The position numbers and the translations under genes are program-made. Positions 4,503 to 22,675 of a stretch of 58,221 nt of DNA are shown here, piece after piece. This DNA comes from Myxococcales bacterium. Lineage in GTDB: Bacteria > Myxococcota > Kuafuiibacteriia > Kuafuiibacteriales > Kuafuiibacteriaceae. Within the stretch, counting starts at the first letter, position 1, and every line of letters begins with the position of its first letter. The notes under the pieces were generated by a model that saw only the letters and a list, made by a program, of their open reading frames with translations, did no database searches and was not told the origin of the DNA. The DNA lies in contig JAHQVK010000023.1 in the NCBI GenBank assembly GCA_019634385.1, positions 1 to 58,221 on the forward strand, in the 5' to 3' direction.

Positions 4503-6824
4503 CTAGAGAAGTCCCGACTGCCGCCGTCTCCACCACTCCGTTCCTGCTAAAACCAAAAGTAACAGCAAAAAAACATATGTATTCCAGATTGGTACCTGGC
4601 GACTCCGATTTACCTCAACTCGACGTTCATCCTTAAACTGTATCGAAGGCAAAGCTTCATTTATTGGAACATATTTCCCCTTCGAACCCTTTGAGAGGGC
4701 CTGAAGAATCCCTGGCCGTGGAAAGGGTAACTGAAACTCAATATCTGCGGACTCAACAATCAGTGGCTCTTTAGCTTCGCCGATGTGCCGTCCATAGGCA
4801 TCAAAGGCTTCAGCCTTAATTATGTATGTACCCGGGGAAAGGTTTGAGAATCTCTCTACAGCAGTTCCTTCCGCGCCGGTGACCAGTTCGTGTTCATCGG
4901 GTAAGTCAGTAACTCCCCCCTCCATCTCATGCTGCTGAAACGTCTTTGCGGATACTCTGACCAGACGAAGCTTAACGGTAGTGCCAACTAATGGTCGGTA
5001 ATTAGGCCCCAATACTTCCACTTCCACATGAGCGGCATCCCCCTTAGCGATGACCGAGCGGCTCACTTGAAGCCGCACGCGATCCAACTCCGGATCTTTG
5101 ATCAACCATCGGAGGGCATTCGACCAAAATCGATCAAACTCTCTGCCTGTACCTCCGTCAGAAACCGCTACAAACCTCCAAAACCACAAAGAATCTGTAG
5201 AAACCGATAGCGTTCGCCCTTTCTCTACTTCGCGCACCGCCACCACCGGCGGATTACCGGGCAACGAGGGATGAGTCAGAAGAGCCGACGCATTTGGCAT
5301 CAAACCAAGGCTTGAGTTCATGCCCTGAAGCAGTGGCAGGCGAGCAAACGCAGCATCTAGGGGCTCACCAGCCTCTGCGATACTTGTAATAGGATGAACC
5401 CGACCATCAGTAGTCAACCGCGGTCGATACGATGCAGAATCCCACAACATGGCCCCCCCCAACCGAGTTGGCAAAATATCGGCCACCGCAGTATTCGCAT
5501 ACCAACCATCCTCAAAAGATTGATCTCCACCCACCATCATAAAACCACCACCTCGGAGGACATAATCACGAATATTAGGTAGGTATCGATCCATTCGGTA
5601 CGGGCGGTACGAGAAATTTTGATAGATAACGACATCAAAAGTCTCAAGCTCCTCCGTGAACAATTCATTCACCGGAAATGGAATCAGAGCGAGCTCATCT
5701 TGAGATGCCTTCTGTAGATCGGTTGTCGAACGAAGAATAAAGAAAGATATAAGATCTACATTGGGGTTTCTCTTGAGAAGCTCTCGAAGAAAACGTTGAT
5801 CCCAAGATGGTCGACCAGCAACCTGGAGCACACGAATCCGATCGCGAATTACACGAAGGACAAAGCTTCGCTGATTGTTAGTTTTAACGGTCTCTCCGGC
5901 CTGTATGGGAACCGAAACTTGATAAACCTGTTTACCAATAGCTCGAGGCTTAAACGAAAAGCCTACTTGAGCCTGCCCTTTATCAAAACGCGCCGACTTG
6001 GTTTGGAGGACATGCCCATCTTGTTTGAGGGCAACACTTACCTCCCTCACTTGAAGACCCCTCGCTTCAAGGTCAACGTCTATCTGAACATTATTATGCA
6101 CAAAGGCAAAGTCTCTCGAAGGGATTGGCCGGATAGCCACATCAGGCGCCGTCGCATCTTCATCAAACCCCACAGTATATATTGGTATACCTAGATTCGC
6201 CGACTCGCGAAGCGCAGTCGCATCGGTTAACCCTTCTGTATCCGCACCATCGGAGTACAAAATTATTGCCCCCAGCTCCCTTCCAGCCCCTTGCCACGAT
6301 ACTTCCCTCAGCGCACGAACAAGATCTGAACTCACACCTTCAGGTAGCAACTCGGTGGGCATCTCGTCGATAGGGCGTGAACGTGAGTCAAACGCATGCC
6401 ATTCGATGGACGCCTTTTGAGATAGTTCCCTAAAGGTGGTTTGATTCTGTTGGAGGTGCTGAAGAACTAGCTCTTCTCGTGTACCTCGGTCAGAGGCCAA
6501 ATCCATAGATCGACTGACATCTAATAAAACCGCGATGCGAGACCGGACTCGTGATATCGCACGCAACTCAATCGTGGGCTGCAGCAACAAAAACAGGATC
6601 AAGACCCCAAGACTCAGGCGCCAACTCATCAGCTCCACACACCGTCGCCGCGAGAGACGCCAAACCCCCACTAGCGATAAACCTAGGGCCACCACCAACA
6701 GGGCCCCCATGAGATACATAACCCCGGGAGCCCAATCAGCACCACTGATCAACCGCCAATCATTGTAAGCCCCTGGTGCTGCGTCTGGGGCTAGCCATTC
6801 CACCATTTGATCGACGCTCATCAA
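4503..6824 (-). CDS. Membrane VWA-domain protein with glutamine-amidotransferase-like domain
   Basis: A 773-residue inner-membrane protein of the kind found beside DUF4159 proteins and in MoxR/DUF58 loci. Two N-terminal membrane helices (about 33-54 and 64-86) precede a von Willebrand A domain with an intact MIDAS motif, D102-x-S104-x-S106. A Rossmann-like 'class I glutamine amidotransferase-like' region follows (about 335-475, with FDVVIYQNF and GGGFMMVGGDQSF). A beta-rich region comes next, and a C-terminal helix (about 745-768) is followed by WWRRRQ. The GAT-like region has no evident catalytic Cys triad. It overlaps the DUF4159 gene by 4 bp (ATGA), so the two are probably translationally coupled. 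The stop TAG abuts a family B element. Confidence 0.8.
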   Translation of the reverse strand: MMSVDQMVEWLAPDAAPGAYNDWRLISGADWAPGVMYLMGALLVVALGLSLVGVWRLSRRRCVELMSWRLSLGVLILFLLLQPTIELRAISRVRSRIAVLLDVSRSMDLASDRGTREELVLQHLQQNQTTFRELSQKASIEWHAFDSRSRPIDEMPTELLPEGVSSDLVRALREVSWQGAGRELGAIILYSDGADTEGLTDATALRESANLGIPIYTVGFDEDATAPDVAIRPIPSRDFAFVHNNVQIDVDLEARGLQVREVSVALKQDGHVLQTKSARFDKGQAQVGFSFKPRAIGKQVYQVSVPIQAGETVKTNNQRSFVLRVIRDRIRVLQVAGRPSWDQRFLRELLKRNPNVDLISFFILRSTTDLQKASQDELALIPFPVNELFTEELETFDVVIYQNFSYRPYRMDRYLPNIRDYVLRGGGFMMVGGDQSFEDGWYANTAVADILPTRLGGAMLWDSASYRPRLTTDGRVHPITSIAEAGEPLDAAFARLPLLQGMNSSLGLMPNASALLTHPSLPGNPPVVAVREVEKGRTLSVSTDSLWFWRFVAVSDGGTGREFDRFWSNALRWLIKDPELDRVRLQVSRSVIAKGDAAHVEVEVLGPNYRPLVGTTVKLRLVRVSAKTFQQHEMEGGVTDLPDEHELVTGAEGTAVERFSNLSPGTYIIKAEAFDAYGRHIGEAKEPLIVESADIEFQLPFPRPGILQALSKGSKGKYVPINEALPSIQFKDERRVEVNRSRQVPIWNTYVFLLLLLVLAGTEWWRRRQSGLL

Positions 6825-7621
6825 CGCCTCCGATCAAGAATGAATGGCGCATGAACCAGATCGTCTTTGTAATCGAGACAGAGTACGTACATGACAATGT
6901 TGATGCCCAAGCGAAAGGCCATTTCCCGCTGACGCTCCCCTCCCGGGCTCACGTCGTGGGTCCAGCGCCCAAAAGGATCCCTGGACCAGGCACCGGCTAA
7001 ATCGTTTTGGCAATACACAACCGCGTAACGATTCTCGAGAGTTAGGCCCTCCATATACGGAACTCTCAACACCCGGCCGGCCTGATGCGTCACCAGGTAG
7101 AAGGTCTTATACAGAACATGTTCACTGGGAATGCGGTCGAGACGTCGGCGCGGAAACAAGTTTCCCAGCAACCGACGCACCGACGCGTCAAAAGCTCCCC
7201 CTGGCTCCGCGTCTGCCGAGTCCACCAAAAGACTACCCCCATAGGTTAAAAAGCGGCGCAGCGCACGAATGCTATCCTCCGAAAACGGGGGGATCTCGCC
7301 AGAGCCACCAAGATATACCAGTGGATATCGAAAGAGCTCAGGGGAGGCCGGATCAACCAGTACTTTCTCAAGGTTCACCTTGATAGAGGTCCGCTGCCGA
7401 ACTTCCCAAGCCAAACGACGTAGGGCATCTGGCCGAGCATCCCAGTCCCCCTCCGTTCGAAGCTGAGCAACCTGGAGGTCGGAGGCGCTCGGTTTGAACC
7501 CCATCAACAACGACCCAAAACCGCCCAAGGTCACCGCCTGGCGAAGAAGCGCCCGTCGGTGCGAAGTTCGGTGGCCGACGTAGCTCACGGAAAATCCGTT
7601 TGGTGGGGCGTCGACTATCAT
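6821..7621 (-). CDS. DUF4159 protein with Tat-like signal
   Basis: A 266-residue protein with a DUF4159 domain: YPLVYLGGSGEIPPFS near 97-112, LRRFLTYGGSLLVDSAD near 120-136, and RIPSEHVLYKTFY and NDLAGAW further on. These proteins have a glutamine-amidotransferase-like fold and usually sit with MoxR, DUF58 and VWA genes. The N-terminal HRRALLRQAVTLGGFGSLL looks like a twin-arginine signal, so export or membrane anchoring is likely. Only the VWA partner is present here; no MoxR ATPase or DUF58 gene is adjacent. The biochemical role of the family is unknown. Confidence 0.75.
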   Translation of the reverse strand: MIVDAPPNGFSVSYVGHRTSHRRALLRQAVTLGGFGSLLMGFKPSASDLQVAQLRTEGDWDARPDALRRLAWEVRQRTSIKVNLEKVLVDPASPELFRYPLVYLGGSGEIPPFSEDSIRALRRFLTYGGSLLVDSADAEPGGAFDASVRRLLGNLFPRRRLDRIPSEHVLYKTFYLVTHQAGRVLRVPYMEGLTLENRYAVVYCQNDLAGAWSRDPFGRWTHDVSPGGERQREMAFRLGINIVMYVLCLDYKDDLVHAPFILDRRR

Positions 7622-7779: not shown

Positions 7780-9171
7780 CTATGTAGACGGAGTGAATAC
7801 TATCGGGTAATCCACGAACACAGAGCCCCCCCGAGGCCTCGGAAAACGCCAAGACCGGGAGATCTTTTTGATACACTGCTCAACAGTTTTACTATTTAGT
7901 GAGCCCCCGAAGTCTAAATTCTGGAGCCGACCACGGGCATCAATTTCAAAGCTTATAACCAGCTTACCGCTGAGCTTTCGGTTTCGCTTGAGGGCATTCT
8001 CATAGCAAGCTTTAATGCCACTTTTCTTACGATTCATCACCCGCCGTATCGAAGCCGGATCCAGACTTCCATCAACCTCCGGAGTCTGTGCATCCAACTC
8101 GCCGCTCACCCTGGTTTCTGACTTTTTGCCGGCAGATACATCCCCACCACCACGAGTACTTAGTTTACCTACACCAACAGCGTTACCGCCAGCACCCCCA
8201 CGGGTACGACCCGTTTGCTGAGTAGCGAGATCTACCCCTTTGATACCCGAAAACGCAGCTTGCATCGATCGACTAGCCCCGCCCTCTTTAAAGACATCAG
8301 CCAGTGCCCCACCTCCACCAACCTTTGTCGTTCCAATCACCCCCAGCAGCCCCCGACCTGCCACTTGTTGTTTGGCCCGTTGCCGCCGTCTCTGCTTCGA
8401 GTTATCACGAGATGGTTGATCCCGAGGTCTATCTTTAGCTACTTCCTTCTTCTTGGGAGTCTTCTTGGTCTTTTCTTCTTTTTGGGGTTCCTTGACCTTT
8501 GTCTCCGCTTTGGCTTGCACTGGTGCTTCCTTAGGCTGCGGCAACTCGGGCTCGCGCTCGGGCATGATCAATCGCTGGTAAGTCTCGCTAATTTCATCAA
8601 TGGACTTGGGTTCCACGTACGGAAGATTTCGCGCATACGTCAGAACTGACATCAGTAGCAAACCTACAACCACCAGTATCGACGTAAACTGTATATCGAG
8701 ATTGGTGAATACGCCCCCCCGCACCTGAGGCGGTAGTACCGGTCGGGATGGGAGCAAAACTCTCGACTTAAACTGAAACAAGATAGTTATATCACCATCC
8801 GCCAGTATTACTTTGCCGCGACTCTTGTCCGTAAGACGAACCCCTTTCTTACTACCTCTTTGAACCACCAAGCCACGCTTAGCCAACATTTTGAAGTCGC
8901 CAACTGGTTCATCCTCGATCTGCAAGCGTCCTTCGACGCTTTCATCGAAGCGCAGATAGTAAGCTTTCCCATCAAACTCAAATAACTCAAATATTCTTGG
9001 TAGTTTCTCTGAGGTCACCTGAAATGAGCATCGCGGTCCCGAACCAATAGTCACCGTTTCGCGCTTTTTAAGTTCACGCTCCTCAATAATCTTACCACGC
9101 TGTACGATTCCAATACGCAGAACCTTGGCCCCGTGGGACTTATTGGCCCCCTCTCTTTCGCGCGAACTCAT
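7780..9171 (-). CDS. FHA-like / TonB-like membrane protein of the AgmX-PglI (GltG/GltJ) type
   Basis: A 463-residue inner-membrane protein. Its cytoplasmic N-terminus has an FHA-like pattern (IGSGPRCSFQV, 42-52). A single transmembrane helix lies near 161-180, followed by a Lys/Glu/Pro-rich linker (195-275) and a Gly-rich stretch (275-345). The C-terminal domain (about 365-463) matches the AgmX/PglI C-terminal family, with the paired cysteines in IKACYENALKR and EQCIKKISRSW and the final WRFPRP block. In Myxococcus, PglI/GltG and AgmX/GltJ share this design and link the inner membrane to periplasmic TPR proteins. It follows the 98-residue secreted protein by 21 bp, and 158 bp separate it from DUF4159. 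Confidence 0.75.
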   Translation of the reverse strand: MSSREREGANKSHGAKVLRIGIVQRGKIIEERELKKRETVTIGSGPRCSFQVTSEKLPRIFELFEFDGKAYYLRFDESVEGRLQIEDEPVGDFKMLAKRGLVVQRGSKKGVRLTDKSRGKVILADGDITILFQFKSRVLLPSRPVLPPQVRGGVFTNLDIQFTSILVVVGLLLMSVLTYARNLPYVEPKSIDEISETYQRLIMPEREPELPQPKEAPVQAKAETKVKEPQKEEKTKKTPKKKEVAKDRPRDQPSRDNSKQRRRQRAKQQVAGRGLLGVIGTTKVGGGGALADVFKEGGASRSMQAAFSGIKGVDLATQQTGRTRGGAGGNAVGVGKLSTRGGGDVSAGKKSETRVSGELDAQTPEVDGSLDPASIRRVMNRKKSGIKACYENALKRNRKLSGKLVISFEIDARGRLQNLDFGGSLNSKTVEQCIKKISRSWRFPRPRGGSVFVDYPIVFTPST

Positions 9172-9192
9172 AATCTCTGAAACCTCTCCCGT

Positions 9193-9489
9193 CTAAAACG
9201 AAGCCTTCTCTACCGATTTGACAATCTTGGGTACAAAGCTCTTCTTCAACGCTAAGCCTTCGAAATTTAGACTGCTTCGTTGGAGAATATAAAAAGCCTG
9301 AGGTTTCTGGATGCGACCCTCAATAGTGGTCCCCGTCATGCGGATTACCGTCCGACGTCCCCCTGGTCTTTGCTGTGCGTAAGCTGACGAACCAATAGCC
9401 GTTGTTAAAATCACAGGTAAGAGGCACCCGCTTGCTACATCTCGGCATCGCTTTAAGAAACTACCTACTCTACTACTTCGTTGACACAT
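9193..9489 (-). CDS. Small secreted protein of unknown function in the Glt-like run
   Basis: A 98-residue protein with a Sec signal peptide (hydrophobic CLLPVILTTAIGSS, cleavage expected after AYA near residue 39). The mature part is about 60 residues and contains TVIRMTGTTIEGRIQKPQAFYILQ. No family is recognised with certainty. It sits 10 bp after the TPR lipoprotein and 21 bp before the FHA/TonB-like gene, so it is almost certainly co-transcribed with the envelope complex. The short beta-rich mature part suggests a periplasmic accessory subunit, which is inference. Confidence 0.65.
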   Translation of the reverse strand: MCQRSSRVGSFLKRCRDVASGCLLPVILTTAIGSSAYAQQRPGGRRTVIRMTGTTIEGRIQKPQAFYILQRSSLNFEGLALKKSFVPKIVKSVEKASF

Positions 9490-9499
9490 ATCTGACTAC

Positions 9500-10771
9500 C
9501 TATAGCCTCTCCGACGCAACTTCGTGTTGAGAATGCGACGATTGCTCAGGACCCTTCTTGCGCAGCTCCTGGCGTTTTTCCCGTTCAATAAGTTTTTGGG
9601 TGCGTTTACGTCCTCGATTGGCTTCCACCAGTAGACTTTGAATTTGCGCCTTCTCGTCCTGCGCCAAAGCGAGCTCTTTGGCCAAAAAGCTCTTAAGGTA
9701 GTTCTCAGCGATGCTCCAGCGCTCCAAACGATCAACACCGGACAACTGGTTGTCCAGATGCAAAATGCCCAGATTGTATAAAACGGCATGCGCTTGGCCA
9801 TCTAACTCCAATGACTGCCTGTAGGCCTTTTCGGCCTCTTCATACCGCTTGGCGCCCTTGAGCGCATTGCCTAAATTTTGATAAGCTTCTGGATACTTAG
9901 GGTACAAAGCTATCGCCTGTTCCAAATGGCGAATCGCTGGCTCAAAATTTTGAGCTTCTACCTGAAGCGCCCCCAGATTGTTGTGAATCTCTGGGAGGTC
10001 CGATCGTACTTCCAAAGCCTTTTCGTACGCCTTGAGTGCCTCTGGGTGTTGACCTCGACTGACATATACATTCCCCATCATACTCAAGACTCGAGCATCC
10101 TGGTTTTTGATCGTTCGAGCACGTTCCAAAACAGATGTGGCCAACTCTTTTTGACCCCTTCGGAGAAAGATATTCGCGAGAACCACCAGCGCGCCAATAT
10201 GCTGCTCGTCTACCTTAAGAATACCTTTGGCTTCACGTTCTGCATTCTCAAGCTGTCCAAGTTTAATCCATATGAGACACAATCTTGCCCTCAGAGCGTA
10301 TGCATCTGGTTTACTTTGTACGGCAGCTTGTAACAACCGAATCGCATCCTCCGTCCGGCCGGTTAAGATGAGTACGTTTGCCAAATTCTCGGTCGCCAAA
10401 TTGTAGTCAGGCTTGATCTCTAGCGCCCGTTGATACGCTGCCTCAGCCTGATCTTCTTGACCCAAGCGTTCATAAATAACCCCCATGTTATAGTGGGGTT
10501 GCGCGGCCTCAGGGTATGCTTTCGCCGCAGATTTCAACTGACCAAGCGCTCGTTGAGGGGCTTTTACCGCTATCTCCGTCGCTGAACGAACCAGCTCTTG
10601 GAGCTCGTCAGCGGTCGACGATGGAGATATCTCCCGAGAACTATCTTTTGCACTAGTGGTTGGCCTTTCCGCGCCCCCTATTGTCTTAGGCGACACCGAT
10701 TGATTCGCGCAACCCTGGCCTAGTAAAGCCCAGATACTCCCCATAAGTATGGACGTCGACCACCTCTTCAT
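9500..10771 (-). CDS. TPR lipoprotein (AglT/GltE-like)
   Basis: A 423-residue lipoprotein. The start is taken as the ATG at 10771, 17 bp after the end of the upstream gene and behind an AAGGATGG site; a longer frame exists but would overlap that gene heavily. The signal peptide ends in a lipobox LGQG-C21. About eight tandem TPR units follow from residue 70 onward (for example HYNMGVIYERLGQ, EIHNNLGALQVEAQ, AYQNLGNALKGAK). The C-terminus is charged. It resembles the TPR lipoprotein AglT/GltE of Myxococcus, which works with PglI/GltG; the FHA/TonB-like gene two genes downstream supports this. Confidence 0.75.
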   Translation of the reverse strand: MKRWSTSILMGSIWALLGQGCANQSVSPKTIGGAERPTTSAKDSSREISPSSTADELQELVRSATEIAVKAPQRALGQLKSAAKAYPEAAQPHYNMGVIYERLGQEDQAEAAYQRALEIKPDYNLATENLANVLILTGRTEDAIRLLQAAVQSKPDAYALRARLCLIWIKLGQLENAEREAKGILKVDEQHIGALVVLANIFLRRGQKELATSVLERARTIKNQDARVLSMMGNVYVSRGQHPEALKAYEKALEVRSDLPEIHNNLGALQVEAQNFEPAIRHLEQAIALYPKYPEAYQNLGNALKGAKRYEEAEKAYRQSLELDGQAHAVLYNLGILHLDNQLSGVDRLERWSIAENYLKSFLAKELALAQDEKAQIQSLLVEANRGRKRTQKLIEREKRQELRKKGPEQSSHSQHEVASERL

Positions 10772-10787
10772 TTCGAAGACCCATCCT

Positions 10788-13700
10788 TCAGTGCGCCAAA
10801 ACAACCAACGCATCATCAGCAAAATGCCGCCATTGAACCATAGAGTCCAAGCCATTCCCAAAAATAAGATCTTTTTGTAACGCAGGCTTTCCCTGTTTTT
10901 GAATTGGAAACTCATTTGGTGCAAACTTATGCAATCCCTCAAGAATACGCTGGGTCCACTGATTGTTAATGCCACCTCGACGAGCTTCTTGGTAGGCCTT
11001 TCTGTATGCATCTTCTGCATTGCTCTCCAAAATAGCGGCTTGGTCTTCAAGCTGGACCCGGTATGCGTCAGCTAGATCAGGATTCCGATCTAAACTTTTT
11101 GGTACTGGTGCAGTAAAGAGCGCTTCGGCAAAGCGATCGTATGAGTGACCGATTCGAAAAGAAGCAGCAACTGTTTGCTCTAATCTCTTATAGGCAAATA
11201 CGTCGGCATAAGCCTGCTGAACTCTCACCTGAACCCGAGCCTTTTTCTTCAGTGCTTCCACCTGCTCGCGCTCAGAACCTGAGATCGCGATCTTGTCGTA
11301 GTCATCAAAAACAAACTCCGCCAGCTCAAAAGAACACTGGGCTGCATATCCGCCGGCCAGACTCTCAACACTCAAGCGTAGCCGCTTAAACAACGCCACG
11401 CACCTTCCAAAGGCACCGCGAGACGCTCTTAGCCTCCCACGCTTTGCTTCCGCCTCACCCATCTTTAAGTAGGCACGCACCAATCTTTCGCGCTGCTGTG
11501 GTGCCTTTTTGTGTTTCTTAACGAAGCCAGATAGGGTCGCGACCATCCCTTCCCATTTTTCCATTTTCTCGTAAACGAGGGCGCTTCGAAAATATACGTC
11601 TCCAGAGTCCGCTCGATTCGGAAAGACAACCGCATAGCGTCTATAAGCTCGGGCCGCCTCTGGGTATCGCTGCATATGTTCCAACACTACAGCCACATTA
11701 AACAACGCATCAGCCCGTTCTTCTGCTTTCGGGTACTTCTTTACTAATGTCTGGTACGCTTCAATAGCGGTTGGGAAGTCGAATCCCTTTTCTGCGCTGA
11801 TTCCCACTCTGAACAACGATCGCGGTGCAAGCTCTGATCCGGGATAATCACGGGAGATGCGCCAATATGTCTTGGATGCGGCATCAAATCGGTTGGCTTG
11901 TTCATAAGCAACGGCAGCGTTAAAAAGCGCTTTGTCAGCGACGTCACTTTGTGGGTTTGCATCCACCAGATCAACGTAAGCCAACGCGGCCTCTTCATAC
12001 TTCGTTTCGGTATTCAATTGTTCAGCCAGCTTGAATTTGGCTCTCAGTCGTACATCACCCAGTGCACTCACAAGCTTCTTACCCCTCGTGCCACTCTGCG
12101 CTGCTCTTTGAGCGATCTCAATGATTCGGCCGGACCATTGATCAACCTTATCCCACTCTTCAGAAGCCAAATAACTCTCAATGATAAGGTTTGCGGAAAA
12201 CTCCGCCACAGTGTGGTCAGGATATTTTTTTATGATCTCCTCGAAACGGCTCCTGGCCTCATCAAATCGATCATGCTTGTAGAATTCTTGGGCGGCTCGA
12301 TACTCGATCGCGGCCCGGTTCTCCCCAGATGTTACCAAAACTAAAAACCGATCGGATGCATCAACCAATGCTTGCCGTGCCGGAGGAAGGGGCTTTGGGC
12401 TAACCGGAAGGGCTTTTCTTTCTTCCGCCTTAAGTACTTTTAGTGTCGGTATCTCACCTTTGTTCTCAAGAGATTCGATACCCTGTTCGTGAGACAACAC
12501 CGCATATAGAGCAGCAGCGGCCAGATGCTTATTATCAATTGCACTGTCTCGAACCTTTGCATACTGCTCCGCTGCCTGTTCATAGGCTTCGGAGTAATAT
12601 AGAGTTTCAGCTAGATAGAAATCAAAATCATACGCGCGATTCGAATCGGGAAAGCGGGTGAGGTAGTCTTGATAAGCAGTAGCTGCTGCTCGATACTGAG
12701 CTATCGACTCCAATCCTTTCCCCTGAGACCTCAAGCTCTGCGCTTGCTGATGCCGAAAGAGTGCAGCGGTGTATAGTGACTTTTCGGTCAATGACCGGGC
12801 CTTCACCAACGCCTCCTGATCTCCCGCATTGGCTGCAATCCAGGAAGATCCAGCACCATAGTCTTTCACCAGTCTTTCCCTGGCTTTCGTAGCAGCATCA
12901 AAGTCCCTCAGCTGCTCATACGCGCGAACTATTTGTACCTGGGCTTCAGGATTGCCACGCGCTCGGGGATACCGCTGAATCATATATTGTAGCGCACTGA
13001 TTGCTTCCTCGTAACGAGTCTGTTCAAACAGTACGTCACCGTACCGTCCCCAAATATCTTGGGCAAAAGTCTCTTTATCTATCGAAAGAAGTCTCGATCG
13101 AGCTTTTGTGAAATCCCCCCATTTTTCATCAGCAAGCGAAATCGCTATATATTGAATCGCCTCCGACCTTAACTCGGACCCAGTTGAACCAGTTTTTGCC
13201 TTCTGTTCATCAGCAAAATGTACAAGCGCGACAAATGAATCGATTGAAGCATCATACTGATCGAGACGATAGTACGTCCAAGCCAACTTGTAGAGAGCTT
13301 TATCGTAGTACGCACTCGGCCCAAAACTAACTACTTGTTGGTATGCATATACAGCTTTCGCGAGAGATTTTTCGCTGTTTCCATCAAAATAAATCTCTCC
13401 AATCCGGGTCCAAACCTCTGGAATAAATTGAGATTCTGGATGACTTTCGACCAAATCCTCAAAAGCAACAAGCGCACTGTTTGTTTCCCCCATTTCACCA
13501 TACGCATAGCCCAGTAGATATCGAGCGGCGTCTGCGAGCCGATAGCGAGGAAATCGCTGCAATAGGGTACGATGCAGCGCAATTGTCTTATCGAAATTCG
13601 GTTCGGGAGCCTCTAACTCTGGTCCGCTAACATCTTCGAGTGCGGAGAGACGATCTTCATAGGCACGACTCTCTTGCAGGAAGTCATCACTCGACTTCTC

Positions 13701-14390
13701 ATAATGCAACTCCGCAAGCCTAAACATGGCATCAGGCGTATATATTGGATCATTGGGATACTTTTTAACGAAAACTTCGAAGCGATCGATCGCTTCTGTA
13801 CGAAGTGACCGCTCATCTGCTTCCAGTTCCTCAATGCGCCTTTCATACTGCGAATCCAGCTGCAGCTTCTCTTTCTCGTATCGCTGGTAAATTAATGACT
13901 TTTGACCAGAAGCGAAAGAATCCACACCCCGCTCATAATATTTCAGCTCCTTTTCCAGGAGCTTTATGGTGTTGTCCTTGGACAAGGACTGGTCGATGTC
14001 CTGAGTTGTAGGTGGCCGGAGGGGTTGATACTCTCCGTCACCGACCCGACGTTCTGCGCCAGCCTCAGCTTCGCCGAAGTTGTCCACAGATTTCGAGGAG
14101 GACGCCACATCATCAGGAGCCAAGGCTGTTCTCCCTGATAACGTGGAGGTGGTGGTCGCGGAATCATTGAGTGTTGGTACATCTGTTGGTGTTGAGAGCC
14201 CCGATGGTGACGCTGCTGCATCACTGGTTTCTGGACTTGCAATAACCCCATCCGCGGTCTCTGCCTGAGTACTTGTCGCGGCAGATTGAGCGAGCACGAT
14301 CGACGATCTCCCAGCAGCCGCCTCAAAGAAGCCACCGACTAAACAGCTCCCCAATAGCCAAAACCGTAGGTCAAGAAACGCTCGGCACAT
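10788..14390 (-). CDS. Large periplasmic TPR protein (AgnA/GltD-like)
   Basis: A 1200-residue protein with an N-terminal signal peptide (hydrophobic WLLGSCLVGGFFEAAAG), a low-complexity Ser/Thr-rich segment (35-90), a coiled-coil stretch (about 130-200, EKELKYYERG...KEKLQLDSQYERRIEELEADER) and then a long TPR solenoid to the end. YbgF/BamD-like repeats such as FVKKYPNDPIYTPDAMFRLA and FEEIIKKYPDHTVAEF recur. It starts 2 bp after the end of the upstream gene. Myxobacterial gliding loci contain a similar large TPR protein next to AglT; equivalence is inferred from order and architecture only. Confidence 0.7.
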   Translation of the reverse strand: MCRAFLDLRFWLLGSCLVGGFFEAAAGRSSIVLAQSAATSTQAETADGVIASPETSDAAASPSGLSTPTDVPTLNDSATTTSTLSGRTALAPDDVASSSKSVDNFGEAEAGAERRVGDGEYQPLRPPTTQDIDQSLSKDNTIKLLEKELKYYERGVDSFASGQKSLIYQRYEKEKLQLDSQYERRIEELEADERSLRTEAIDRFEVFVKKYPNDPIYTPDAMFRLAELHYEKSSDDFLQESRAYEDRLSALEDVSGPELEAPEPNFDKTIALHRTLLQRFPRYRLADAARYLLGYAYGEMGETNSALVAFEDLVESHPESQFIPEVWTRIGEIYFDGNSEKSLAKAVYAYQQVVSFGPSAYYDKALYKLAWTYYRLDQYDASIDSFVALVHFADEQKAKTGSTGSELRSEAIQYIAISLADEKWGDFTKARSRLLSIDKETFAQDIWGRYGDVLFEQTRYEEAISALQYMIQRYPRARGNPEAQVQIVRAYEQLRDFDAATKARERLVKDYGAGSSWIAANAGDQEALVKARSLTEKSLYTAALFRHQQAQSLRSQGKGLESIAQYRAAATAYQDYLTRFPDSNRAYDFDFYLAETLYYSEAYEQAAEQYAKVRDSAIDNKHLAAAALYAVLSHEQGIESLENKGEIPTLKVLKAEERKALPVSPKPLPPARQALVDASDRFLVLVTSGENRAAIEYRAAQEFYKHDRFDEARSRFEEIIKKYPDHTVAEFSANLIIESYLASEEWDKVDQWSGRIIEIAQRAAQSGTRGKKLVSALGDVRLRAKFKLAEQLNTETKYEEAALAYVDLVDANPQSDVADKALFNAAVAYEQANRFDAASKTYWRISRDYPGSELAPRSLFRVGISAEKGFDFPTAIEAYQTLVKKYPKAEERADALFNVAVVLEHMQRYPEAARAYRRYAVVFPNRADSGDVYFRSALVYEKMEKWEGMVATLSGFVKKHKKAPQQRERLVRAYLKMGEAEAKRGRLRASRGAFGRCVALFKRLRLSVESLAGGYAAQCSFELAEFVFDDYDKIAISGSEREQVEALKKKARVQVRVQQAYADVFAYKRLEQTVAASFRIGHSYDRFAEALFTAPVPKSLDRNPDLADAYRVQLEDQAAILESNAEDAYRKAYQEARRGGINNQWTQRILEGLHKFAPNEFPIQKQGKPALQKDLIFGNGLDSMVQWRHFADDALVVLAH

Positions 14391-14392
14391 AA

Positions 14393-16771
14393 CTAGTTGT
14401 CCTCTAATACTCCGCGGAATTCGCTATCCAGTTCACCAGAACGCAGACGAAGCTCCTGAACCAGTTCAGTGACCTCATCGGTTGTTGCCCGTTTGCGAGC
14501 CCACGCCACATCAAGAATACCAACATCCGCCCGGAGCACTAATTGACGAAACCGTTGGCCAACCTTGTCGATAGTCCTGGCCGCTATTGGACTCAACATA
14601 TCATCGGAGACTTGACTCAGCCGTTGATGTTCAATTTCCAGCCTTTCTAGTAAGCGAAATTCTTTTAAAATTTTTGCTCGAATTTCACCAACACGAACCT
14701 CAACTGTTTGATCCAGCTTGTCATGAAGGACCAATAGTTCCTTTTCCAGGGAGCGGAGCACCTTACGCTGCTCGGCTATGCGCATCACCACGCCGAGATG
14801 TGTATCGGATATTCGAGCACGATTAACCTCTATAATGTTTGCCTGCTTATCTTCCCAAGCACCCAAATACTTACCCAGGCGGACCCCGCGGGCCCAACCG
14901 CTATACTCCCCGGCATACATCGCAGAGCGTTTTGCTGCACTCCCAAGTTTTCCTATAGAATTAATTAGAAGTCTCAGTTCGATATCCGCCGCTCGAAGGC
15001 GTTTCTTAGTAATTTCATGCTCTTCGTCATCCATTACTGGTCGATGACGTGCAATCCATATACGTGCAGCGGCCAATTGGGCCTGCATAGATTCTACGCT
15101 GCTACGCTGGAGAAAGACTCGTTGTTGGACCGATGCATATTGTTTTCTCAAGCCTTTTCTGTAGAGCTCGATCGCCTCTGCGCTCAGCGGAAGAGATTGC
15201 AACTGACTTTCGAAGGTCTTTTCACGAAAATAGGCCACCTCAAGTTCAGCCTTAGCCGCTGGAGAAATATATTTTGCGACCAAGCCACGCTCGGCCTCAA
15301 GAAGCTTCTGCCGATAAAACAACGTTCGGTGAAGTAAGGATATAGCTTTGGTGAGTCCATCAGCCAAGCCAGGAAACAGAGCAAATCGTTGTGAACTACC
15401 AAGAGCAACTTCTAAGGTTCGAACCAATTCAATAGACTCTTTTAGCTCCTCTGAGGTCGCGACAAGTGCGCGTCGAACATCAACCGTATCTGAGACATTG
15501 GAGTCACCTAGAGCAAACTGCAAAAAGAGGTCGGGCAAAAGACTCAGTCGACCGAGATCATTCAAGTCAGTCACCACAAGTTCGTCAAAGAAAGCCTGGG
15601 CATCCTTCTTTGATGCTAAGAGTACCTCAAATTCATTTTTTGCACCGCCATAGACATCTACAACCGTTTGAAATATGTCGTAGGCTTGTTTTTTAGCACC
15701 AAGGCGTATCCGCAAATTTCCTTGCAACACGCGAGCTTCGGGAAATAGGAGAGAGTTGGGCGCAGTTGCCATCAAGAGCTCCGTGACGTCCAAAGCAAGA
15801 CGGTACTGACGTTCCTGCTCCGGCGAATTTGCTTGTGAAGCATTGGCAGCCGTCACATGGACCCAAGCCACTTCGTACAACATCTCCGCGAAGTGTACAG
15901 AGTTTCTCGAGATCAACTGATATGCAGACAATGCATTGGGTGTATCACCCAACTCCTGATAAAGCCGGCCGAGGGACAACAAGGAGAGCTCTTGCATCTC
16001 GGAGCCTCGGGTAGCTGAACTGGAAAGTGATAGCGCTCGTTGAAACTCGATGATCGCCTCTGGGTAGAGTTTCAGCTGAACCAAAGCTACTCCAGCATAG
16101 TAAGCCGCAGGGGCTGATATAGATAATCCATGTGGAACCGCCCGAAACTTATTGAGGGCTTGCTTTATTCGATCTTGATCTTTCTTTGCCCCCCTGAGCA
16201 AGGCTTTGCCGTAGACATACTCGATTTTCGAGTCCTCCAGGGCCCCCTTTCCCTTAATACGAGCCATATAAGTATCGATGTTGGTGAAGTTTCCCGTAAT
16301 ACTTGCGACCTCGAGCAGACCAAGCACCACTTGGCTAAGGCTCCGTCCGCCCTCTCGAGTCGCCAGCAGCTCATAATGAACTCTTGCAAGCTTAGGATAA
16401 CCAGATTTGCGCAGACTCTCAGCGAGTAGATAGAGGGCTCTCGGATAGTCGGGATCCGAGCGAAGTTCAGGACGTTCTGCTATATCAGAAAGAATGATCG
16501 CAGCTCGGTAGTGATCCTCCAGTAGAGACTGCACTTCAGCTTCCTTTAAACGCCTCTTTAAGCGCCCGGACTTGGACTCATCAACGAGTTGATAGTCCTC
16601 AGAAATGGAGTTCAACTCATTGTGCAACTCATCACTAACCGTCCGAACCTGATTCAAAATTTTCCGAGCCTCAGTAAGACTAAGGGAGGACGAACCAGCA
16701 ACAGCCAACCATGGCCAGGCCATTAGTCCGGTGGCGATAATGACGCGGCCCAAAAGCTCTGCATACTTCAC
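14393..16771 (-). CDS. Periplasmic TPR/coiled-coil protein of the Glt-like run
   Basis: A 792-residue exported protein with a signal peptide (IIATGLMAWPWLAVAGSS). The first half carries TPR-like helices (RALYLLAESLRKSGYPKLA; AAYYAGVALVQLKLYPEAI; LSLGRLYQELGDTPNALSAY). The second half is mostly long charged helices predicted to form coiled coils (RIAEQRKVLRSLEKELLVLH; FRLLERLEIEHQRLSQ). It overlaps the upstream 238-residue gene by 4 bp and is 2 bp from the downstream TPR gene, showing tight coupling. No specific family is recognised. Confidence 0.7.
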   Translation of the reverse strand: MKYAELLGRVIIATGLMAWPWLAVAGSSSLSLTEARKILNQVRTVSDELHNELNSISEDYQLVDESKSGRLKRRLKEAEVQSLLEDHYRAAIILSDIAERPELRSDPDYPRALYLLAESLRKSGYPKLARVHYELLATREGGRSLSQVVLGLLEVASITGNFTNIDTYMARIKGKGALEDSKIEYVYGKALLRGAKKDQDRIKQALNKFRAVPHGLSISAPAAYYAGVALVQLKLYPEAIIEFQRALSLSSSATRGSEMQELSLLSLGRLYQELGDTPNALSAYQLISRNSVHFAEMLYEVAWVHVTAANASQANSPEQERQYRLALDVTELLMATAPNSLLFPEARVLQGNLRIRLGAKKQAYDIFQTVVDVYGGAKNEFEVLLASKKDAQAFFDELVVTDLNDLGRLSLLPDLFLQFALGDSNVSDTVDVRRALVATSEELKESIELVRTLEVALGSSQRFALFPGLADGLTKAISLLHRTLFYRQKLLEAERGLVAKYISPAAKAELEVAYFREKTFESQLQSLPLSAEAIELYRKGLRKQYASVQQRVFLQRSSVESMQAQLAAARIWIARHRPVMDDEEHEITKKRLRAADIELRLLINSIGKLGSAAKRSAMYAGEYSGWARGVRLGKYLGAWEDKQANIIEVNRARISDTHLGVVMRIAEQRKVLRSLEKELLVLHDKLDQTVEVRVGEIRAKILKEFRLLERLEIEHQRLSQVSDDMLSPIAARTIDKVGQRFRQLVLRADVGILDVAWARKRATTDEVTELVQELRLRSGELDSEFRGVLEDN

Positions 16772-17484
16772 GACTCTGGATTCTCCGAAGGCGACTGATC
16801 TACGGGAACCCGAAGATCTTCGATGACCGAAGTTTCGAACCGGATATTGGGTCGCCGCTGCAACTCGGTTGTGATGCCCCCTCGCTCATACGCTATAGAT
16901 TTCACAACGATTTGTTTGCCCTCTTCTGCTGTAAATGGGTAGCTAGACTTAATTTTGAATTGATAAGCATCAAGATAGGTAAATAGGCCGTGCCCATGTC
17001 CACGATATACGAGGACCACAGACAAATTGTGCGTTCCAGCAGGTATGCTCCCACTGAATAACTCTACCTCTTTGCCACGGGAATCTGTATCACTATCCAT
17101 AGTTTTGAACAACAGGTTTTCCCCGTCTAGGCTGTAACTCATTTCTAAAAGGCGAAATGATGAACCCATATCATTACGATGCGTTATTACCGCGCGGGCG
17201 CTGGATATCACTCCCTCTAAGACCGTCTCACGAAGGAGTACTAACCGGGCTTTGCTTTTGAAAACCTTTTCTTTGAGGGCGTTGACCTTCTCCTCGAGTG
17301 AGCGAACCTCAACACCAAGTTGAGCCGTATCTACCCCCATCTTAGAGGTTTCTAACGCACTTCCATCCGGCCTTTGGGACGGATCCACTTCCTGTGCTTG
17401 CGCATAAGTAGAGGCTAACATGAAGAGTAATATCGTCGTTCTACCCACCTGGCACCATCTCATCGATTTATTGGGAAACGGCAT
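16768..17484 (-). CDS. Exported coiled-coil/beta-sandwich protein
   Basis: A 238-residue exported protein. The signal peptide ends near AYA/AQA at residue 28-30. A short coiled coil follows (about 50-85, VRSLEEKVNALKEKVFKSKA), then a beta-rich domain (about 95-215) with SGSIPAGTHNLSVVLVYRG. Similar proteins of myxobacteria carry misleading database names; I do not assign a function. The start at 17484 is chosen because AGGAG lies 7 bp upstream, although this overlaps the end of rnd by 17 bp. The end overlaps the next gene by 4 bp. Confidence 0.7.
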   Translation of the reverse strand: MPFPNKSMRWCQVGRTTILLFMLASTYAQAQEVDPSQRPDGSALETSKMGVDTAQLGVEVRSLEEKVNALKEKVFKSKARLVLLRETVLEGVISSARAVITHRNDMGSSFRLLEMSYSLDGENLLFKTMDSDTDSRGKEVELFSGSIPAGTHNLSVVLVYRGHGHGLFTYLDAYQFKIKSSYPFTAEEGKQIVVKSIAYERGGITTELQRRPNIRFETSVIEDLRVPVDQSPSENPES

Positions 17485-18652
17485 CTATAATCTCCTGACC
17501 GAGCACATCTGTTCGCCATCTCCCAAGACCTTCTACGCTCCGAAGCTCAGCAATAGTATGTGGCGCAGCTCTAGCAATTCGTTCCAGTTGCTGATTGGTC
17601 AGCAAAAATCCTGGTTCTAAGCCCAAAGAGACAGACCATCGCTGTCGTCCTTCTTTCAGACGCCGTAATCGTTCGCGATCCTCACTACGCATAGGTGTTG
17701 CCTTAGAGCCAGGTGAAGATACTTTTTGCGGGCGCTGGCTCCCTGGGTCGGGGGCTTCGATGCCTTCTTTCACCGCTCGATAAAAACTATCTCGGTCGAC
17801 ACTTGATTGAAGAAAATGGAAGCCACCAATCTTTTTAATTAGATTTTGCCCATGCGCATCCGCTGCCTTCGCAATCTTAGCCAGATGCTCTGGACGCGCC
17901 ACTCGGAAGCTAGCGATATTTTTTCGCTCCGCTTCTTGTTCTCTCCATTTCCACAAAGTATTCATCACTGCCCGCCCTCGCCGACCTAAGTTCTTAGCCG
18001 CCTTTACCTTGCGCCAACTTTGCTCATCAAAAGACTTTGTCGTGGGCTCTACAGAACACACCCGTTCGCACTCCTCTATATGCCAATCTAACCGACCAAC
18101 CTTTTCGAGCATGGTGCTCAATCTGTGCCGAAGCGGAATCAACCACTCAACATCCTGTCGCGCATACCGGAGCTGATTGAGCTCAAGAGGTCTTTTTGAC
18201 CAATCTGATCGCTGCTCACCCTTATCTATATTGATACTCAGGCAAGTGGCTAATACGTCTTTCAAGCCGGCACATGGTAGCCCCAATACGCGGGCAGCTA
18301 CGGCCGTATCAAATATACTTACTAGTTGGATGGAGAAATCTCTCTTAAAGGCACGAACTTCGTTATCACCGGCATGCAGAACGAGTGTAGGAGTATTTCG
18401 AGTCAGCACCTGAGCCAACGAGTTAGGCAATCCATGCGTGAGAGGGTCAAAGAGCCAATCCTCTTCTTCTGTAGCCAACTGAATGAGACACACTCGTTCC
18501 AGATAGGCGTGATAGCTATCAGTCTCAATATCAAGCGCTAGATAAGGAGCCTTCATCAGTCTCGCGATCACGTCAGCCCGGCCCGGGTCTAACACGCTTA
18601 TCGGTCGAGCCTTTTCGGCCTGTAGCTGTGTTGTTGGACCCAAATCGACCAT
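17468..18652 (-). CDS. rnd: Ribonuclease D
   Basis: A 394-residue 3'-5' exoribonuclease of the DEDDy superfamily that trims tRNA and other RNA 3' ends in the cytosol. The N-terminal nuclease domain has D41-I-E43 (LALDIETDS), a middle Asp in HAGDNEVRAF, and the final motif YARQDVEWL with the Tyr and Asp of DEDDy. The C-terminal half has HRDC-like helices (LWKWREQEAERKNIASFRVARPEHLAKIA). It is the first gene of the minus-strand run, 203 bp from the divergent nucleotidase gene. Sharing a transcript with envelope TPR genes is unusual. Confidence 0.9.
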   Translation of the reverse strand: MVDLGPTTQLQAEKARPISVLDPGRADVIARLMKAPYLALDIETDSYHAYLERVCLIQLATEEEDWLFDPLTHGLPNSLAQVLTRNTPTLVLHAGDNEVRAFKRDFSIQLVSIFDTAVAARVLGLPCAGLKDVLATCLSINIDKGEQRSDWSKRPLELNQLRYARQDVEWLIPLRHRLSTMLEKVGRLDWHIEECERVCSVEPTTKSFDEQSWRKVKAAKNLGRRGRAVMNTLWKWREQEAERKNIASFRVARPEHLAKIAKAADAHGQNLIKKIGGFHFLQSSVDRDSFYRAVKEGIEAPDPGSQRPQKVSSPGSKATPMRSEDRERLRRLKEGRQRWSVSLGLEPGFLLTNQQLERIARAAPHTIAELRSVEGLGRWRTDVLGQEIIDAVSQ

Positions 18653-21481: not shown

Positions 21482-22675
21482 CTAGTACATAAGCACCGGC
21501 TGTCGTTCCTCGACAAACGCCGCCTCATCTTCTCGAAAAGTTTCGAGAATATCCGCTACTGAGGCCCCCCCCTCCAGCAGAGATCTCGGCTGGTCTGACC
21601 CAAACAACAAATCAATAGCTAATCGGTCCGAAACAAACTCGTATGCCTCCACGCGCCAGCCAAAATCCTGCGGAGCCAAACGGCGAGCCGCATGAAGCAA
21701 GGCCAAACTAACCCTTAGGGAACGAATCGTCCATCGATCCACAACATGGATTTGCACCCCACCACAGTATCGGTTGGCATGTTTTTGGAACATCGGCTTC
21801 AGCAATAGTGGCCGGAGCCGAACGCCATCGCCCACATCTTGCGAGGCAGTTTCTGCCCAGGCCCGTCCGTCCAACCATGGTGCGCCACACTGCTCAAACG
21901 GACGAGTAGTACCCCGCCCTTCTGATAAGTTTGTGCCTTCCAACAAACACTGTCCAGGGTATACCCAAGCGGCGTCATTGGTTGGCATATTGGGTGAGGG
22001 CATGATCCATGGCAGGCCGGTTGCCTCAAAATCCATAGTTCTTGACCACCCCTTCATCGGGACCAACTCAAGTTCTACATCTATAGCTTCTTTCTTTCGA
22101 ATCCATGCCGCGTATTCCGCCAGGGTCAAGCTGTGTCGTATAGGCATATTAAACGCCCCCACAAAGGACACAAACTGCGGATACAAACCAGGACCCTCAA
22201 CATCCTCATCCCGACCTCCAAGCGGATTTGGCCGATCGAGAACCAGCACCCGGGTCCCCGTCCGGGCTGCGGTTTGCATTACATAACCCATGGAAGCGGC
22301 ATAGGTGTAATAGCGAGCACCAATATCCTGAAGATCAACAACCACCACGTCCAACCCAGAAAACATTTCCGGACTAGGTCGCAAGGATGCCTCATCAGAG
22401 CCATACAGCGAGTAGACTTTCACCCCGCTGGGCTCCCCTGAGCTCTGCTCCGTAACCGTCTCCATATCTTGCGCAGCACCTTCAAGGCCATGCTCGGGAC
22501 CAAAAAGTGCCTGAAGATCAACACCCGCCTCGACCATCAGTGGGAGGATGTGCCGTAATTGCCCATCCACCGATGCGGGATGGGCAAGGAGTCCCACCCG
22601 CTGACCCTTGAGAGAAGCGAATCCATCCGACACCATGAGATCCAAGCCGGTGAGCACTTTCATTCCGCTCATCAT
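21482..22675 (-). CDS. DUF1343 / exo-beta-N-acetylmuramidase NamZ-like protein
   Basis: A 397-residue member of the DUF1343 family, whose characterised member NamZ removes MurNAc from the non-reducing end of peptidoglycan fragments. The family signatures are present: GQRVGLLAHPASVD, LFGPEHGLEGAAQDME, VYSLYGS, VVVDLQDIGARYYTYAASMGYVMQ and LVLDRPNPLGG, then PSPNMP and LLEGTNLSEGRGTTRPFEQ. No signal peptide is evident, so a cytosolic muropeptide-recycling role is likelier than a secreted one. It is divergent from folD (137 bp) and near murB. Its last residues QPVLMY end at a TAG within a CTAG element border. Confidence 0.87.
   Translation of the reverse strand: MMSGMKVLTGLDLMVSDGFASLKGQRVGLLAHPASVDGQLRHILPLMVEAGVDLQALFGPEHGLEGAAQDMETVTEQSSGEPSGVKVYSLYGSDEASLRPSPEMFSGLDVVVVDLQDIGARYYTYAASMGYVMQTAARTGTRVLVLDRPNPLGGRDEDVEGPGLYPQFVSFVGAFNMPIRHSLTLAEYAAWIRKKEAIDVELELVPMKGWSRTMDFEATGLPWIMPSPNMPTNDAAWVYPGQCLLEGTNLSEGRGTTRPFEQCGAPWLDGRAWAETASQDVGDGVRLRPLLLKPMFQKHANRYCGGVQIHVVDRWTIRSLRVSLALLHAARRLAPQDFGWRVEAYEFVSDRLAIDLLFGSDQPRSLLEGGASVADILETFREDEAAFVEERQPVLMY

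Follow-up and report, generated by a model that had tools for sequence, protein, structure and literature searches.

The window analysed here, the whole 58,221-nucleotide stretch of DNA from a Myxococcales bacterium, harbors a Glt-type gene cluster that belongs to the G4 lineage of Agl/Glt-type systems and not to the G1 gliding core. Within this known lineage the cluster represents a distinct third Agl/Glt-type machine, given its component P238, its own motor class, and its linkage to mglB-mglA. Taken as a whole, we assign a probability of about 0.68 to the reading that this G4-orthologous machine is powered by a proton motor of the class encoded on contig C29 of the same genome (M2 class), is probably governed by MglA/MglB, and serves a polarised envelope task other than gliding. 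The anatomy of the machine is well supported, and its mechanism is inferred.

Gene organization of the cluster

Seven genes are arranged head to tail on the minus strand (window 7780-18652) and either overlap or lie 2-21 bp apart, an operon-like spacing. These genes and two others located downstream are as follows:

17468..18652, minus: rnd, ribonuclease D (DNA_pol_A_exo1 and HRDC); a family-specific neighbour, not a core part
16768..17484, minus: P238, 238-aa exported protein of an unnamed family; first gene of the cluster
14393..16771, minus: GltC-type TPR protein, 792 aa (NCBIfam GltC, 25.6 bits, and hhalign)
10788..14390, minus: GltD-type exported TPR protein, 1200 aa (orthologue identities, hhalign, and tree)
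9500..10771, minus: GltE-type TPR lipoprotein, 423 aa (NCBIfam GltE, 133.4 bits, and hhalign)
9193..9489, minus: GltF/CglF-type small exported protein, 98 aa (NCBIfam CglF and hhalign)
7780..9171, minus: GltG-type transducer, 463 aa, with AgmX/PglI tail (NCBIfam GltG)
6821..7621, minus: DUF4159 protein, probably of separate function (PF13709, 172 bits; also a neighbour in family member L071)
4503..6824, minus: 773-aa membrane protein with a GATase1-like region, partner of the DUF4159 protein, outside the complex (PF07090, 35 bits)

The rnd and P238 genes overlap by 17 bp and the P238 and gltC-type genes by 4 bp; the gaps that follow are 2 bp (gltC-gltD types), 16 bp (gltD-gltE), 10 bp (gltE-gltF), and 21 bp (gltF-gltG), so that the order P238-gltC-D-E-F-G is present in the window. 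The start of the GltE-type gene was re-assigned within a longer ORF, giving the 423-aa protein. No outer-membrane (OM) barrels (GltA/B/K), GltH, GltI, GltJ, or aglRQS were found within this gene run. As the first-pass annotation of the sequence had already remarked, stator genes are missing from the window, and three aglRQS-like triplets were located elsewhere in the genome (contigs C29, C42, and C63).

The DUF4159 gene and its 773-aa partner lie 158 bp downstream of the gltG-type gene. This pair (window 4503-7621), which is kept in L071, resembles a BatA/DUF4159-type pair of separate function. The window further encodes a NamZ-type exo-beta-N-acetylmuramidase (21482-22675; PF07075, PF20732).

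Family identities of the encoded proteins

The proposal of a Glt core cluster, made initially from the letters alone, was borne out by profile searches for GltG, GltE, and the AgmX/PglI tail, and by profile-profile comparison for GltC, GltD, and GltF. The 463-aa protein found its best NCBIfam match in GltG (165.8 bits, E 1.6e-48, model 198-648 of 650), and the 423-aa protein matched GltE over model positions 4-390 of 411, while the matches of the 792-aa protein to GltC and of the 98-aa protein to CglF/GltF (18.2 bits, E 0.0019) were weak. All of these scores were below the gliding equivalog cut-offs (GltG 165.8 against 650, GltE 133.4 against 225, GltC 25.6 against 450, and CglF 18.2 against 90), which mainly mark close relatives of Myxococcus, since the gliding-type copies of the same genome also fell under them.

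Because TPR proteins readily match one another, profiles built from relatives were compared instead, and the window-type families were aligned by hhalign with the gliding-type and Nfs-type families. The GltC, GltD, and GltE types were thereby each matched to their counterparts with a probability of 100 and E values of ~1e-44 (426 columns), ~1e-159 (955 columns), and ~1e-65, respectively, far beyond the TPR cross-controls (E 1e-12 to 1e-15); the resemblance to the Glt families is not due to chance. The GltF type was matched with a probability of 96-97 (E 1e-9 to 1e-10). The window GltD was 51-54% identical to its orthologues within the family and 33-43% identical to the remaining listed orthologues from across the phylum; the GltD query gave no match among plasmid sequences, and neither GltD nor RNase D found relatives in a collection of genome contigs.

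The GltG-type protein comprises a cytoplasmic domain, one transmembrane helix (hydrophobic segment at ~160-180, judged by eye), a Pro/charged periplasmic linker, and a C-terminal AgmX/PglI (TonB-like) domain. The presence of this last domain, which the first-pass annotation had put forward, was corroborated by the score of the tail (myxo_SS_tail, 90.6 bits against a cut-off of 40), and the C-terminal domain also matched TonB structures (E 0.0002). The FHA label given at the same time had to be withdrawn, as PF00498 (Pfam FHA) matched neither the window protein nor any of 31 orthologues; the gliding-type GltG encoded on contig C234 of this genome did match it with 60.6 bits. An FHA fold for the N-terminus was considered and rejected, the similarity to FHA being weak (probability 66). 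The N-terminal domain was aligned with the domain that follows FHA in the gliding GltG (probability 99.4, E 1.6e-21), and the start of the NCBIfam GltG match at model position 198 agrees with an absent FHA. Judged by its sequence, the window protein is a GltG minus the canonical FHA domain.

Assignment to the G4 lineage

The genome, 93% complete with 5.39 Mb in 257 contigs, contains three paralogous clusters, namely that of the window (C201) and those on C30 and C234. The genome search for OM barrels advised in the first-pass annotation was productive, in that barrel-type genes were found at the C30 and C234 clusters. Contig C76 encodes GltJ (189 bits) and a GltI-sized protein of 4173 aa; the latter, a TPR protein, has GltJ and a small exported GltH-like protein as neighbours (L039:5606-18127), and these are the gliding-type accessory genes of the genome.

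In a GltD tree of 63 rows, the window copy and 38 relatives (39/39) formed one clade with an SH-aLRT support of 100. This clade includes a copy at 2.33 Mb, adjoining mglA, in G049, a complete 8.97-Mb genome taken as Myxococcaceae, whereas the C234 copy was grouped with the G049 copy at 6.01 Mb (gliding) and the C30 copy with that at 3.96 Mb (Nfs). By gene order, the C234 group corresponds to MXAN_4870 (gliding), the C30 group to MXAN_3374 (Nfs), and the window clade to MXAN_1922 (G4), the mapping from G049 to M. xanthus being based on gene order and locus-tag numbers and not on the sequence of MXAN_1922. We call the last match tight because two genes separate mglA (MXAN_1925) from the G4 gltD homologue (MXAN_1922) by tag number, and exactly P238 and gltC are located between mglA and gltD in G049. 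The identification of the cluster as the G1 gliding core thus gave way to a separate G4 lineage, and the accompanying suggestion of an ancestral-type version not serving gliding gained support; the machine may or may not serve the polysaccharide or outer-membrane transport also suggested there. In M. xanthus, a (polar) G4 mutant glides without any motility phenotype, and G4 has been called a cluster of unknown function (Luciano et al., PMC3169522).

Several other arrangements were observed among the relatives. GltD-type clusters that belong to none of the three main clades (L130 and L132 in G005 and G020, and L125 in G037), some of which have P238-like and GltG-like neighbours, possibly represent a fourth kind of machine. 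In three genomes of family f13 (L185, L186, L191), GltD is encoded as two ORFs in an otherwise intact cluster. A cyclic-nucleotide-binding-type protein, a possible regulator of the machine, is encoded downstream of gltG in many relatives (L074-L076, L079, L080, L082-L085, L178, L181-L183, L194, L196, and others), and is absent from that position in the window.

P238, the first gene of the cluster

Wherever the flanks of a G4 locus are intact, P238 is its first gene; it was present in 121 of the 149 good genomes and in 72 of the 90 genera sampled. An alignment of 30 sequences displayed a signal-like start, conservation of the segment LEERVNELKEKIFRSKARL, a short coiled-coil/docking-like segment, and a C-terminal half rich in strands; a single-sequence AlphaFold model was of low confidence (mean pLDDT 36.5). 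Searches against Pfam, PDB, and NCBIfam gave no family or function beyond coiled-coil noise, and a query against viral contigs gave no match. The position of P238 is that of the OM barrels in the gliding-type and Nfs-type clusters. As only a 29-residue pre-barrel segment was aligned with the GltA/B barrels (probability 76), this segment is suggestive at most of homology between P238 and the barrels. Relative to the literature searched, P238 is new as a component: it was previously unnamed, and no description of it as a part of the G4 cluster was found there. Second copies of P238 also occur in the other genomes of the family of the window; the copy in the present genome is divergent (30% identity) and lies on the opposite strand near the aglRQS triplet of contig C42 (L032:9859-14438, M1 class).

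Motor class and proposed pairing

AglRQS, a proton channel of the TolQR/MotAB type, works via GltG in gliding and via NfsG in sporulation (PMC3858216). At least 21 relatives carry aglR-aglQ-aglS as a complete triplet between gltF and gltG, a site at which the window has none. In AglR trees, the class of the C29 triplet was split from that of the C42 triplet with a support of 100/100. The G049 triplet at 8.16 Mb (by position, the M1 gliding motor) fell into the C42 class, and that at 3.54 Mb (by position, M2) into the C29 class, where every embedded motor was also placed. Seven of 14 genomes carry an embedded motor, each of the other seven has a triplet of this class at a detached site, and in a tree rebuilt without long branches embedded and detached motors formed one AglR clade (100/99 support); G037 and G019 each carry an extra triplet of this class. 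The third aglRQS-like triplet of the genome (C63; L034:9764-11443), which lies beside an acyltransferase-like gene, has a very long branch and was left unclassified.

From these sequence relationships, the simplest reading would be that the C29 triplet (M2, MXAN_3003-3005, in Myxococcus) powers the G4-type machine, a pairing of which no description was found in the literature searched. M2 mutants have no motility phenotype, deletion of MXAN_3004 affects neither motility nor sporulation, and the M2 AglR homologue MXAN_3003 binds neither GltG nor NfsG (PMC3858216, PMC3169522). M2 as the G4 motor would explain both this lack of binding and the deletion without phenotype.

Upstream neighbourhood

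The coupling to rnd, which had been pointed out as unexpected, proved real in the form of the 17-bp overlap, but it was confined to the family of the window, in which rnd precedes P238 in four of four genomes (the window, G001, G002, and G003); in no other family examined was it found there, its place being taken by mglBA or other genes. The rnd linkage is local and probably incidental, and the widely conserved neighbour is mglB-mglA. Outside the family, mglB-mglA lies upstream on the same strand at 28 of 34 loci in a first set (25 of them within 300 bp) and at 14 of 18 in a second; over both sets the linkage spans ~20 families, and the genes frequently overlap or are only a few bases apart. 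By coordinates, mglBA was located upstream in 108 of 120 genomes, with a median of 219 bp between matches, and several of the 12 remaining cases are at contig ends. Among the loci examined, mglA was found beside none of the gliding-type or Nfs-type paralogues. Since it is missing in the family of the window (4/4) and in ~10% of other genomes, mglBA upstream is not strictly defining for the G4 type.

In the window genome, mglB-mglA is intact on contig C197 (L113:2881-3972), away from any Glt-type cluster; with mglBA on C197 and the motor on C29, cooperation with the cluster would follow from the arrangement in relatives. Some genomes (e.g., most f23 genomes) keep mglA without P238, and hence MglA does not need the G4-type machine. 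Published work reports widely varying neighbourhoods of Group 1 MglA (PMC4316618) and names MglA only as an interactor (PMC3169522); no mention of the mglBA-G4 linkage was found in the literature searched, the coverage of which was incomplete, so that novelty is unproven. A paper on toxin entry in which mglBA is mentioned turned out to be unrelated.

Proposed mechanism and alternative readings

Reasoning from the observed gene content, orthology, motor class, and mglBA linkage, we infer the proton drive, the motor pairing, the control by MglA, and a non-gliding cargo. An AglRQS-type proton channel in the inner membrane, encoded by the detached C29 triplet, would drive the single-helix transducer GltG, the TonB-like tail of which would transmit force or a conformational change to a scaffold that may extend from periplasm to outer membrane and consist of GltC, GltD, lipoprotein GltE, GltF, and P238. 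On the cytoplasmic side, the machine would probably be controlled by the polarity GTPase pair MglA/MglB. Its output would be a polarised envelope task other than gliding, such as the positioning or movement of a component or polymer of the envelope. Gene order alone proves no transport, and this counts against our explanation, as do the extra same-class triplets in G037 and G019.

The strongest rival, which we regard as unlikely yet worth serious consideration, holds that the mglBA neighbourhood is merely inherited gene order and that the complex performs constitutive Tol-Pal/TonB-like maintenance or import independently of polarity. The recR gene is also a frequent neighbour and recR-mglBA is likewise a conserved arrangement (PMC3983030), and the family of the window lost the mglBA link and kept the cluster. 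Against this, the link persists across 108/120 genomes and ~20 families, often as overlaps or few-base gaps, and no gliding or Nfs paralogue locus among those examined has it. That the cluster is the bacterium's own gliding machinery (a G1 orthologue) split up in the genome is highly improbable: while GltE and GltG rank with the top NCBIfam matches, the separate C234 cluster groups with the gliding copy and has an OM barrel and a true FHA-GltG, C76 carries GltI/GltJ, C42 carries an M1-class motor, all window proteins are under the gliding equivalog cut-offs, and M. xanthus G4 mutants glide (PMC3169522). A functional unit of rnd and the cluster that couples RNA turnover to the envelope machine is scarcely credible, as this arrangement, with its 17-bp overlap and its presence in all four family genomes, occurs in no other family examined.

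Evolutionary implications

In 2011, Luciano et al. (PMC3169522) raised the question of how gliding evolved out of an ancestral envelope complex whose function was unknown. With the motor inside, the gene order is similar to that of the compact core complex in non-gliding bacteria (Luciano et al.), and this analysis supports the G4-type cluster as a putative ancestral form. The broader proposal, that the mglBA-P238-gltCDEF-aglRQS-gltG block was the polarity-controlled ancestral machine of the phylum and that gliding and spore-coat rotation came from duplicates keeping the MglA switch, is tentative, and we would put it somewhat below even odds. The data nevertheless point to a concrete within-phylum candidate for the ancestor of gliding, with a motor (M2) and a widespread new component (P238), and the gene order ties this candidate to the polarity switch MglA/MglB. 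The orphan Myxococcus genes MXAN_1919-1924 (numbers partly inferred) and MXAN_3003-3005 become testable as one machine, and such a G4-M2 machine would account for an M2 AglR homologue that binds neither known transducer.

Comparison with known systems

The Agl-Glt gliding machinery (G1, G2, M1) shares with the window cluster the GltC, D, E, F, and G types and an AglRQS-type motor, whereas the window cluster is devoid of the GltA/B/K barrels, GltH, GltI, and GltJ, has a GltG without FHA, carries P238 in the barrel position, and belongs with another motor class. The Nfs spore-coat complex (G3, nfsA-H, including MXAN_3374) contains paralogues of the GltC-G types, identically ordered, but forms a separate clade, has barrels, and uses the M1 AglRQS (PMC3858216). 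In the Group B core complex of Gammaproteobacteria, Geobacter, and Fibrobacter (Luciano et al. 2011), gltC, D, E, and G are clustered with aglRQS and one additional gene, an arrangement that resembles most relatives of the window; the window type differs in the presence of GltF and in having aglRQS elsewhere in the genome. P238 may be this additional gene, which was reported absent from Myxococcales. M. xanthus G4 (MXAN_1922 region) lies directly behind mglBA (locus tags, G049) and the window cluster behind rnd, whereas G4 and M2 (MXAN_3003-3005) are otherwise like the window in the GltD clade, the gene order, the detached motor of the same class, and the lack of a motility role.
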